From Candidatus Sabulitectum sp. (GTDB lineage: Bacteria; Fermentibacterota; Fermentibacteria; Fermentibacterales; JCC-6): a DNA stretch of 53,709 nt. The DNA is taken from the NCBI GenBank assembly GCA_021107435.1, contig JAIOSV010000061.1:1-53709 (forward strand), given 5' to 3'. The notes beneath the pieces are model-generated. The model was not told the DNA's origin. It worked only from the letters and a program-made list of their open reading frames with translations, and made no database searches. Both the position numbers and the translations under genes were made by a program. Below are positions 44,716 through 47,695 of the stretch, piece by piece (the first letter of the stretch is position 1; every line of letters begins with the position of its first letter).

Positions 44716-45407
44716 TCTTCTCTCTTCTTTTTCTGCTTTTGTCCGCGCCCGGTGTCACAGGGATGATTCCCCATGACCCGGGCGCATTTACTCAGGGGCT
44801 TGAGATCCGGTGTGGTTATCTCTGGGAGAGCACCGGTATTTACGGGCAGTCCACATTCAGAAAAACCGATATGGAAACAGGAGAAGTTCTGGACATGCTC
44901 AGGCTTCCCGATACCGTTTTCGCGGAAGGGTTTACCTTTCTGGATGATTCCACTGTGTGCCTTCTTACATGGAAAGAACACTCGGCATTCCTGCTGAACC
45001 CCTGGACAATGGAGATCAGGGAAGAATTCTATCTGAATACAGAGGGCTGGGGCATCTGCTGCACAGGTGAGTTTCTTGTGCAGAGCGACGGCACTTCTAT
45101 CCTGCGATTCAGAGACACCGGTGATTTCTCAGTTCGTGATTCCATATCCGTCACCCTCAACGGCAACCCGCAGTTCTTCCTTAACGAACTTGAGTACCTG
45201 AACGGACAGATACTGGCCAACCAGTGGCGCACAAGCAGAATCCTTTTCATAAATCAGGAAAATGGTCATGTTGAAAGGTTTATCAATCTCAGCAGCGTTG
45301 TCCCTCAATCAGTCGGAGTCCTTAATGGAATTGCCGCAGGAGAAGATGAAACTCTTTACTGTACAGGAAAATACTGGCCGATTACTCTGATTCTGGGTAA
45401 CCTGTAG
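44715..45407 (+). CDS. Exported glutaminyl-peptide cyclotransferase (plant/bacterial type), apparent ATC start
   Basis: The sequence PHDPGAFTQGLEI, LWESTGIYGQSTFRKTDMETGEVL, FAEGFTFLDD, LNELEYLNGQILANQWRTSRI and VLNGIAAGEDETLYCTGKYW is the PF05096 glutamine cyclotransferase propeller, which forms N-terminal pyroglutamate. A perfect signal peptide (IFSLLFLLLSAPGVTG) lies upstream of the first ATG (44763), and a TTG at 44739 would cut it in half. ATC at 44715 overlaps the M48 stop (TAATC, mirroring the TAATG overlaps elsewhere) nine bases after GGAGG. So ATC is the best start, subject to sequencing error. Confidence 0.8.
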   Translation: MFSLLFLLLSAPGVTGMIPHDPGAFTQGLEIRCGYLWESTGIYGQSTFRKTDMETGEVLDMLRLPDTVFAEGFTFLDDSTVCLLTWKEHSAFLLNPWTMEIREEFYLNTEGWGICCTGEFLVQSDGTSILRFRDTGDFSVRDSISVTLNGNPQFFLNELEYLNGQILANQWRTSRILFINQENGHVERFINLSSVVPQSVGVLNGIAAGEDETLYCTGKYWPITLILGNL

Positions 45408-45511: not shown

Positions 45512-46489
45512 ATGCTTAAACTACTGTTTGTTCTGCTTCTCATTGCAACCGCTGCTTCAGCAAAATGGATCACCTCAACAATCGACTCCCCTGACGGGGA
45601 TATTTCAGGTCTCGCCTGGGGTGATGGTCATCTGTGGGCAATGGATGCTGTTTCAGACAGTGTCTACAAGCTTGACCCTGCAACAGGCGACATTATCAGC
45701 AGTTTCTACTTCAACCATGCTGCAACAACGGTTCCTACCGGGCTTGCCTACTCCGAGAATCACAATATGGTGCTGTGCGGCGGCTGGTACATCTCCAACG
45801 GCTATGTTTACAAATATTCCCCCACCGGTTCATATCTGGGCATGGTGAACATGTGCGGCGGTTGAGGAAATCCTGTCTCGTCGGTGACGGGACTAAGCGT
45901 CAGCGGAAACTATCTCTTTCTTTCCTCCAGATCACAGAAAAGAGTTTACCGGTACACACTTCCAGGTATAACCGGCAGACAGCTCCTTCTGTACATGCCT
46001 GCTTTCAACAAAACATGTGATATTGCCTTTAATGCTGGAGACTCTCTTACATGGGCAGCCTCGGAAACCAGTGACCCTGCTGTCAAGTGTTTTAATACTG
46101 AAAACGAAATGGTTGACTACATCGATATCAGCCTTATTCCCAATGCAAGAGGAATGGCTCTTGATCCGGCAGGATTCCTCTGGATAAGCGATGTTGATGC
46201 AGACAAAATTTATCAAGTCGATCTCTCTAATGGTATCGGGGATAGCAACCAGCCACAGGCAGGGCTGAATGTTATTCCCTCTTCGAATCCTTTCAGTGGT
46301 GCAGTTACCATTCAGGCACCGGGAATCCACGCTGAAATAACAGTGGTTGATATGTACGGACGACAGATAGAACACGACACCTTCCAGGAAAGCTGGACCT
46401 GGAATTCTTCGGCCCCTGCCGGCAACTACCTCTTTATCATCAGAGATTATCAGGGAGCATCTGCGATTCTGGACATGGTAAAGATTTAA
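45512..46489 (+). CDS. Putative secreted selenoprotein, propeller-like, CxxU motif, copy A (in-frame TGA at codon 118)
   Basis: A signal peptide (LLFVLLLIATAASA) is followed by NHL-like blades (ISGLAWGDGHLWAMDAVSD, VYKLDPATGDIISSF, GLAYSENHNMVLCGGWY). Codon 118 is TGA in Met-Cys-Gly-Gly-TGA-Gly-Asn-Pro. The same frame continues for 207 codons with three more blade-like units and a FlgD-like tail (SSNPFSGAVTIQAPG ... DMYGRQIE). Read with TGA as selenocysteine the product is 325 residues. AAGGAG precedes the ATG at 45512. TGA ends other genes here, so it is not globally reassigned. The paralog 230 bases downstream has the identical TGA. Alternative: two separate short proteins or a decayed gene. 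Confidence 0.75.
45863..45893 (+). promoter_or_regulatory. UGA codon with candidate bacterial SECIS hairpin, copy A
   Basis: After the TGA (45863-45865), GTCTCGTC (45875-45882) pairs with GACGGGAC (45886-45893), eight pairs with one G-U, closing a GGU apical loop (45883-45885). The loop begins 17 bases after the TGA, inside the spacing reported for bacterial SECIS elements, and has the expected G and U. Confidence 0.65.
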
Positions 46490-46504
46490 CAGGCTTCTAA
46501 CAGG

Positions 46505-46535
46505 AAACACCGGAGCATCTGCCCGGTGTTTCTTA
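46505..46535 (+). terminator. Rho-independent terminator after copy A
   Basis: AAACACCGG (46505-46513) pairs with CCGGTGTTT (46523-46531), followed by CTTA. It lies 16 bases after the stop codon. Confidence 0.7.
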
Positions 46536-46558
46536 TCCCGGATATCCGCGTTTCTCGC

Positions 46559-46652
46559 AACGAAGTCCCTGAAACGGGGCATACTGGCCTTGCCACGTTT
46601 CTGGTAACGAAGTCCCTGAAACGGGGCATACTGGCCTTGCCACGTTTCTGGA
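46559..46652. repeat. Two tandem copies of a 47-bp intergenic repeat
   Basis: The unit beginning AACGAAGTCCCTGAAACGGG at 46559 recurs at 46606 with identity over 46 of 47 bases. The preceding bases (CGCGTTTCTCGC) resemble the end of a unit, suggesting a third partial copy. It sits between the two selenoprotein-like genes. Confidence 0.85.
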
Positions 46653-46717
46653 AACTCTGTATCTTTCCTGTATCTTTCCCGCAATTGAGAATTAAGTCGA
46701 ATTCGAGGAGGTGCGCT

Positions 46718-47695
46718 GTGCGCAAGGTACTGTTAGTGTTGTTTATCATAGCAGCCGCAGCATCAGCCAAAGCAATAATAACAACCCTGGATGCTCCTGA
46801 TACCAACATATCAGGACTTGCGTGGGGTGACGGTTCGCTCTGGGCTCTGGATGCTGTTACTGATTATGTCTACGAACTTGATCCTGAAACAGGTAATATT
46901 ATCAGCAGTTTCTACGTCTATCATCCTGTCACAATTACTCCCACAGGTCTTGCTTACTCCGAGAACCATAACATGGTACTCTGCGGAGGCTGGTATAACA
47001 CCAACGGTTATGTTTACAAATACTCACCCACCGGCTCGTATATTGGCATGATAGACATGTGCGGCGGTTGAGGAAACCCTGTCTCGTCGGTGACGGGACT
47101 AAGCGCAAACGGCAACTATGTTTTCCTCGGCTCCAGAACCCAGAATAGAACCTACTACTACACTCTTCCGGGAATTACCACAAGAAAAGAATTTACTTAC
47201 TTTTCCGGATTCAATAATACATGTGACATAGCAATGAATACAGCGGACAGCCTTGTCTGGGTTGCTTCCGAAAACACAAGCATTGCTGTAAAGTGCTACA
47301 ACACCAGCAACACAATGGTTGATTACATTGATATCAGCATGATACCTAATGCAAGGGGAATGGCCCTTGATCCCAACGGCTATCTCTGGATCAGTGATAT
47401 TGAAGCCGATAAGATCTATCAGGTTGATCTTACCGAAGGCATCGAAGAAGGCAATCAGGGTGTTCAGGGACTTACTGTAACCCCCTCCGCAAACCCCTTC
47501 AGCGGCACTGTTACATTCCAGGCACCCGGTGTGAATGCAACCGTTACCGTGTTTGATATGTACGGTCGTCAGATTGAGAACAACAGCTTCCAGGAATCCT
47601 GGACATGGAACTCTTCCGCCCCTGCGGGAAGCTACATCTTTGTCATCATGGATGATCAGGGAAAGTCAACAACCCTTGAACTGGTGAAGATCTAG
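46718..47695 (+). CDS. Putative secreted selenoprotein, propeller-like, CxxU motif, copy B (in-frame TGA at codon 118)
   Basis: This paralog of the 45512 gene aligns to it without gaps over 325 residues. It starts at GTG 46718 after GAGGAGG, with a signal peptide (LLVLFIIAAAASA). The blades ISGLAWGDGSLWALDAV and GLAYSENHNMVLCGGWY are nearly the same. Met-Cys-Gly-Gly-TGA recurs at 47069-47071, again codon 118. The tail (SANPFSGTVTFQAPG ... DMYGRQIE) is the sorting-type domain. The retention of the TGA in both copies, while other codons diverged, argues that it is read as an amino acid. The protein would place an exposed Cys-x-x-Sec redox pair on a secreted propeller. Partner and activity are unknown. 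Confidence 0.75.
47069..47099 (+). promoter_or_regulatory. UGA codon with candidate bacterial SECIS hairpin, copy B
   Basis: TGA at 47069-47071; GTCTCGTC (47081-47088) and GACGGGAC (47092-47099) enclose the loop GGU (47089-47091). The structure is identical to copy A. Confidence 0.65.

Follow-up and report, generated by a model that had tools for sequence, protein, structure and literature searches.

Two tandem genes of a Candidatus Sabulitectum genome very probably encode selenoproteins of a real and apparently new family, which we call selenopropellers. Both lie in the window, the whole 53,709-nucleotide stretch of DNA that was analysed. The initial annotation had put them forward as a candidate new selenoprotein family, and this proposal is supported by the selenocysteine (Sec) machinery of the genome, a TGA conserved in 124 genes, a covarying hairpin and selection past the TGA. 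The two genes and their predicted elements are:

45512 to 46489, plus strand: candidate selenopropeller gene 1, 325 codons, ATG start, putative Sec codon 118, TAA end
45512 to 45562, plus strand: predicted signal peptide of gene 1, MLKLLFVLLLIATAASA, assigned by eye
45863 to 45865, plus strand: putative Sec codon TGA of gene 1 (codon 118)
46718 to 47695, plus strand: candidate selenopropeller gene 2, 325 codons, GTG start, putative Sec codon 118, TAG end
46718 to 46768, plus strand: predicted signal peptide of gene 2, VRKVLLVLFIIAAAASA, assigned by eye
47069 to 47071, plus strand: putative Sec codon TGA of gene 2 (codon 118)

The description of two 325-codon paralogs sharing the same in-frame TGA at codon 118 was borne out when coordinates and frames were checked. 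In both genes the TGA stands in the context CGG-TGA-GNP and the frame remains open beyond it to a normal stop. The proteins are 70% identical, and a Shine-Dalgarno-like AAAGGAG or GAGGAGG can be read upstream of each start. Elsewhere TGA acts as an ordinary stop, as had been claimed: by a mechanical count it ends 21 of the 42 non-overlapping long open reading frames of the window, and whole-genome recoding of TGA was rejected on this count.

The initial annotation had asked whether the genome holds sel genes. Tested against an assembly that is 91.86% complete, the answer was positive throughout: a tRNA-Sec with UCA anticodon (70.4 bits), adjacent selA (492 bits) and selB (316 bits) genes on contig C67, selA coming first, and two selD genes were all found. 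Of the 581 positions of the selB model the match spans 1-347, within a frame of 632 residues. Each selD gene carries an in-frame TGA of its own, in the context CAG-U-AGK, and past it a hairpin with the loop GGU or GGC; these codons and hairpins serve as an internal positive control. Among relatives tRNA-Sec alone was searched, in 42 genomes (41 relatives and G099, a genome of another phylum). It scored above the cut-off in 37 of them and reached at least 65.8 bits in 36; the match in G028 was weak (49.4 bits), and five genomes, G032 among them, gave none. Five of these six genomes with a weak or no tRNA-Sec match carry TGA-type family genes. The relatives' genomes are incomplete, yet the listed completeness is 94% for G024 and 91% for G028.

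The in-frame TGA recurs throughout the order. Keeping TGA windows only where a Cys lay at most four residues before the TGA, we obtained 126 windows and, after removal of two truncated duplicates (L054 and L055), 124 distinct family genes. All genomes of the order but one contribute to them, 41 of 42 with our own included; G033 is counted among the 41 solely through the fragment L141. Other in-frame TGAs near matches were natural ends, lay upstream of starts, or belonged to the frameshifted L138 or, as a second TGA, to L116. Matches confined to the part past the Sec site were excluded (L144, L145, L180, G016:C1, G035:C9 and G033:C212). Up to seven TGA-bearing genes occur per genome (G028 and G034), and a protein search of our own genome found two further paralogues with one TGA each (C91 and C56). 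At E <=1e-15 a search of 60 genomes (our own and 59 others) gave matches in 41, all inside the order, and none in G032, which belongs to the order, or in 18 other genomes; a profile search found two matches in G032, both of the non-Sec kind. Gene 2 has ten named relatives at 69-83% identity, which are assigned to Candidatus Fermentibacteraceae, Candidatus Fermentibacteria or Candidatus Sabulitectum. Homologues ending at the TGA had been named as evidence that would speak against a selenoprotein; none end there, and many matches span the whole protein through the TGA.

Outside the order, a profile search of 385 genomes identified three members in G099, the only genome of its phylum in the searched set, each with the motif HCPGG-U. 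The tRNA-Sec of G099 scores 65.8 bits and stable folds of -13.6 to -17.6 kcal/mol follow the three TGAs. These three genes show no GGU loop at a fixed distance and are too few for a covariation test. A wider search round G099 (386 genomes, E <=1e-12) added no TGA-type member beyond those of the order and of G099, and a weak partial match in G424 had no TGA. Since mostly five candidates were scored per genome in both searches, distant members may be missed.

Comparison of genes 1 and 2 gave a dN/dS of ~0.13 before the TGA (dN 0.16, dS 1.23) and of ~0.12 after it (dN 0.23, dS 1.91). Protein selection is equally strong on either side of the TGA, and the value of ~0.12 past it indicates that the downstream part is selected as protein. 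Synonymous divergence is far lower directly behind the TGA, with a dS of 0.20 for codons 119-131; for codons 132-325 it is 3.0, which is saturated. The DNA just past the TGA is therefore selected as nucleic acid as well. The longest run of identical DNA between the two genes, 28 nt, starts from codon 121. A hairpin falls within this region of each gene:

45875 to 45893, plus strand: predicted SECIS hairpin of gene 1, GTCTCGTC-GGT-GACGGGAC, loop starting after 17 nt from the UGA
47081 to 47099, plus strand: predicted SECIS hairpin of gene 2, its 19 nt identical to the hairpin of gene 1

Both window hairpins have 8 bp, a GGU loop and a spacing of 17 nt, with -13.0 kcal/mol for the 38-nt stretch. 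In 123 of the 124 family genes a GGU or GGC triplet (AGU in one of them) lies between complementary arms, at exactly +18-20 or +21-23 nt from the TGA; the sole exception is the fragment-like L141, the only gene of G033, which is without the hairpin. Paired cells amounted to 97.3% in the 75 distinct sequences with the loop at +18-20 and to 96.2% in the 44 with the loop at +21-23. Under a synonymous-recoding null (1000 trials each) pairing was 49.9% and 63.8%, with maxima of 54.8% and 70.1%, and a null that shuffled the 3' letters gave 90.1% and 78.1%, with maxima of 91.7% and 83.3%. In two sets of representatives of these spacing groups, 22 and 19 sequences hand-picked from the family hairpin list, double-sided changes that kept pairing were found in 21 cells per set, which none of 500 shuffles reached. 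Two further measures set the hairpin less clearly apart: 5 of 500 shuffles in set 1 and 41 of 500 in set 2 had at least as many pairs changed in this way, and 4 and 107 of 500, respectively, at least as many types of pair. In the CU group the compensatory changes are directly visible in arms such as ACCGG/CCGGT, ACCAG/CTGGT, ACCTG/CAGGT and ACCAA/TTGGT. Codon choice points the same way: all 44 windows with GNPVSSVTGL (43 genes, one counted twice) use the invariant codons GTC TCG TCG GTG ACG GGA for VSSVTG, codons that elsewhere make up only 13-27% of those for their residues. RNAalifold recovered the hairpin unprompted on both sets of representatives. On the second set (19) it also drew two inner pairs beyond our own count.

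Folded one by one, the window hairpins were only modestly better than shuffles (z of -0.95 to -2.08 over four stretches), so that the case for a SECIS element rests on comparison; for a longer stretch of gene 1 the preferred fold differed in part from the hairpin. Rfam models matched only a tRNA-Asn and, below threshold, one plastid family between 44500 and 48500, with no SECIS match. The rules for bacterial SECIS elements, as given in the accessible text of a 2026 review (PMC13188914), are G in the first loop positions and a spacing of 16-37 nt, and the minimum free energy rule given there is satisfied by 118 of 119 distinct family sequences. The downstream hairpin that had been proposed as a check thus agrees with these published rules and covaries across the family. 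Judged by sequence comparison, the hairpin past the UGA is a bacterial SECIS element.

The Sec residue and its Cys partner were read from a tree alignment of 141 rows, namely 119 Sec proteins of the order (the 123 prepared proteins minus L116, L142, L143 and L138), 19 non-Sec relatives and the three proteins of G099. The 122 Sec rows carry CxGU (52), CU (67) or, in G099, CPGGU (3). The CxxU motif named in the initial annotation therefore holds for the window genes but not as a motif of the family, as CU occurs in 67 of the 119 Sec rows of the order. The non-Sec relatives form two clades, one of eight proteins that lack Cys and carry Ser in the Sec column, the other of eleven proteins with a single Cys and a loop about five residues shorter. 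This Cys falls in the Sec column in all eleven in the tree alignment; an earlier alignment that held eight of them placed it in the Sec column in three and in the partner-Cys column in five. Trp, Arg or Gly was found at the Sec place in none of the 19. The proposed check for Cys homologues at the site gave only a partial answer, the eleven single-Cys proteins with their shortened loop, and a Cys-Cys form (CGGC or CC) was absent from all 141 aligned rows. Sec and non-Sec proteins separate on the tree with two changes. One FastTree tree, rooted on G099 and with several weakly supported nodes, suggests that Sec is the ancestral state and was lost twice. The absence of a Cys-Cys homologue is unusual for selenoproteins; according to the accessible text by the deep-Sep authors, Cys-containing homologues now seem to exist for every known selenoprotein (PMC12013277). 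We tentatively picture, with reservations that weigh slightly heavier than the support, an order-wide, multi-copy family of exported beta-propellers for which the pair of Cys and Sec would be obligatory; in the relatives aligned, Sec went together with the pair and never gave way to Cys-Cys.

An AlphaFold2 model (mean pLDDT 88.9, pTM 0.71) was made with A1, an alignment of 65 of the 123 prepared proteins that also served for the profile. The model predicts a five-bladed beta-propeller, with an N-terminal strand closing the fifth blade, and an all-beta C-terminal domain. According to its strand list the Sec loop (residues 114-126) joins blade 2 to blade 3; confidence is lower here, with a block mean of 71 for residues 111-120. 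In propellers the ligand-binding face is usually lined by inter-blade loops of this kind. The model places about three blades, together with the sorting domain, downstream of the TGA. The C-terminal domains and a conserved upstream neighbour of the two genes are as follows:

44739 to 45407, plus strand: glutaminyl cyclotransferase (Glu_cyclase_2), conserved upstream neighbour, sharing the fold class with the selenopropellers without sequence membership
46286 to 46486, plus strand: C-terminal sorting-type domain of gene 1, under the NCBIfam and Pfam cut-offs
47492 to 47692, plus strand: predicted Por_Secre_tail of gene 2, a T9SS type A sorting domain, TIGR04183 at 29.9 bits (above the NCBIfam cut-off, below the Pfam one)

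A sorting-type tail had been ascribed to both proteins. For gene 2 this stands by the NCBIfam model TIGR04183 (29.9 bits, cut-off 23), but gene 1 falls below it (14.3 bits), and with the Pfam model PF18962 (cut-off 27) both remain below (19.4 for gene 2, 14.9 for gene 1). By the NCBIfam model gene 2 shares this domain with type IX secretion (T9SS) cargo, and the genome encodes the T9SS component SprA (416.2 bits summed over pieces, cut-off 200). Unlike such cargo, other paralogues carry a short W-x-x-I-K-x-x-F tail at the C-terminus or resemble lipoproteins by eye, with LSAAC or SSAC near the N-terminus. The upstream order of CHASE2 cyclase, SH3, M48 peptidase, cyclotransferase and selenopropeller was found in nine of ten named loci, in some of which the first gene is truncated where the contig or locus stops; the record of the tenth, L184, holds only the cyclotransferase and the selenopropeller. 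No redox partner gene was identified in this conserved neighbourhood.

The best structural match of the selenopropeller model was glutaminyl cyclase (PF05096; PDB 3nol and 3mbr), likewise a five-bladed propeller, with a TM-score of 0.73 by target length and 0.54 by query length. Sequence identity is just 11-14% and the PF05096 profile gave no match in genes 1 and 2 at E up to 1; to our knowledge, glutaminyl cyclase does not need a Cys-Sec pair. Propellers of the NHL/SMP-30 type (TRIM2, PknD and the designed Pizza) gave profile matches over the selenopropeller blades that stayed below the curated Pfam cut-offs, and DUF6923 (PF21959) scored 26.8 bits in both proteins, below its cut-off of 27. 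We know of no Cys-Sec loop in NHL/SMP-30-type propellers or in DUF6923. SELENBP1/methanethiol oxidase, as described in the accessible text of PMC10362175, is a beta-propeller tied to thiol chemistry, as proposed here for the selenopropellers, but it is copper-dependent and binds selenium via Cys, with no encoded Sec. Neither Pfam nor NCBIfam gave a match to a family of this type, nor did either give a family specific to selenopropellers.

The 2026 review counts 119 families or subfamilies of prokaryotic selenoproteins (PMC13188914). Selenopropellers resemble the bacterial selenoproteins catalogued in its accessible text in the UGA, the G-loop hairpin and its spacing, a Cys near Sec, and SelA, SelB, SelD and tRNA-Sec; they differ in that no Cys-Cys homologue was found among the 141 aligned rows. 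The family table of the review has no entry named as a beta-propeller or as a T9SS-sorted or cargo protein, in line with the earlier remark that a propeller scaffold was not familiar among described selenoproteins. The word propeller is also absent from the accessible text of PMC9312934, PMC12013277 and PMC5029168. Literature searches on propeller selenoproteins, Fermentibacter selenocysteine and Sabulitectum found no paper; preprints and most subscription papers lay outside their scope, for which reason 'apparently undescribed' is the fair wording for the family.

How might such a protein work? By the established mechanism, SelB with Sec-tRNA would bind the hairpin loop and place Sec at the UGA. 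The protein would leave the cell via its signal peptide, using type IX secretion where the tail is present, and would fold into the five-bladed beta-propeller that sequence and model predict. Cys and Sec could then form a reversible selenenyl-sulfide at the cell surface. Our first choice, towards which we lean with modest confidence, is that this bond takes part in redox chemistry, with either surface disulfides or a small sulfur or peroxide compound as the substrate. The main rival on the chemistry accepts the selenoprotein and has Sec and Cys bind a soft metal or hold selenium, with no redox catalysis. We consider this unlikely, yet worth serious attention: the position of the Cys partner shifts between CxGU, CU and CPGGU, a change that a soft-metal site could accommodate, Asp170 is invariant (65 of 65 rows), and the accessible text of the review names some catalogued CU or CxxU selenoproteins as metal-binding or mercury-related (PMC13188914). 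Each site offers only two soft ligands, however, and the strict pairing of Cys with Sec fits a selenenyl-sulfide too.

Redox use of the Cys-Sec pair, our preferred reading, also has to be set against a role of Sec as a gate for selenium supply. Without selenium, translation would stop at 117 residues and the surface coat would shift. Any Sec codon makes the full-length product selenium-dependent, and genomes with up to seven TGA-bearing copies (G028, G034) would suit such a switch; the invariant Cys partner and the conserved loop are left unexplained by it, and we regard it as improbable. Still less probable is a UGA read as an ordinary amino acid, whether through near-cognate read-through or through partial recoding, in which case the hairpin would stimulate read-through. 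Read-through elements can be hairpins, and near the Sec place eleven non-Sec relatives carry a single Cys and eight a Ser. Against this stand the full Sec machinery of the genome, a hairpin that follows the SECIS rules, the like hairpins with GGU and GGC loops in its selD genes, a Cys that by eye shortly precedes the TGA in every TGA-bearing match covering the site, and the lack of Trp, Arg or Gly at the site in the 19 non-Sec relatives. That the TGA is a true stop, leaving pseudogenes or short 117-residue proteins, is hardly credible and was rejected: TGA is a regular stop in the host genome, but dN/dS is ~0.12 downstream, the TGA keeps one place in 124 genes of 41 genomes with many end-to-end matches, and about three blades and the sorting domain lie past it.

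Decoding of the TGA as Sec would have consequences for how such genes are found. Selenopropeller genes are probably mis-annotated, because standard annotation ends at the TGA. According to the accessible text of PMC12013277, deep-Sep may filter out selenoproteins without Cys-containing homologues, and families of this kind could therefore be missed systematically. If our reading is true, selenopropellers would be a selenoprotein family whose fold and export route are absent by name from the current catalogue, and one that an uncultured lineage has multiplied to up to seven copies per genome. They would make testable the question of what a cell gains from selenium chemistry outside the cell.

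The two selenopropeller genes of the window, which very probably encode selenoproteins, predicted to be exported and propeller-shaped, are separated by a tandem repeat at 46545-46660 with a unit of about 47 nt. Its core lies between genes 1 and 2 at two positions:

46571, intergenic, repeat core GAAACGGGGCATACTGG
46618, intergenic, repeat core GAAACGGGGCATACTGG

No further match to the core was found within the window when up to 2 mismatches were allowed, and exact matches occurred in only 3 of the 213 fetched loci, all three of which represent this one intergenic place.

The window's own genome (G000) carries two selD genes, on contigs C42 (L148) and C39 (L149). Both contain an in-frame TGA within CAG-U-AGK that is followed by a hairpin.

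Among the family members from other genomes, L116 (G017:C7:43157-45334) has an extra in-frame TGA about 60 codons 3' of the Sec TGA. There is no Cys close to this second TGA, which could mark another Sec or stem from decay or from an error in sequencing. In G099, a genome of another phylum, the Sec propeller (HCPGGU) is part of longer proteins (L177, L178 and L179). By eye, a T9SS-like NPFN tail is reached inside the fetched stretch in two of these three members, both of which also show dockerin-like repeats.

Seemingly unrelated proteins of G000 share a short C-terminal tail that approximates W-(A/G)-x-I-K-(A/S/T)-x-F, with a stop codon after it. The pattern matched 17 times in this genome versus once for a backwards control, and the stop codon came directly after the tail in 16 of the 17 matches and after two more residues in the remaining one.

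Examples of the tail among the 17 places in G000, by pattern match
L201:919-1524, tail-bearing place
L211:931-1524, tail-bearing place
L197:1501-2268, tail-bearing place

The motif is often preceded by E-R-x-(S/T), and most of the tail-bearing proteins have a signal-like N-terminus as judged by eye. Eight tail-bearing proteins were compared with the Pfam and NCBIfam models, and none of the models extended over the tail. The same tail is also found on short selenopropellers, for example the paralogue on contig C91 of G000. In this lineage, W-(A/G)-x-I-K-(A/S/T)-x-F may act at the C-terminus as a new tag for sorting or anchoring.
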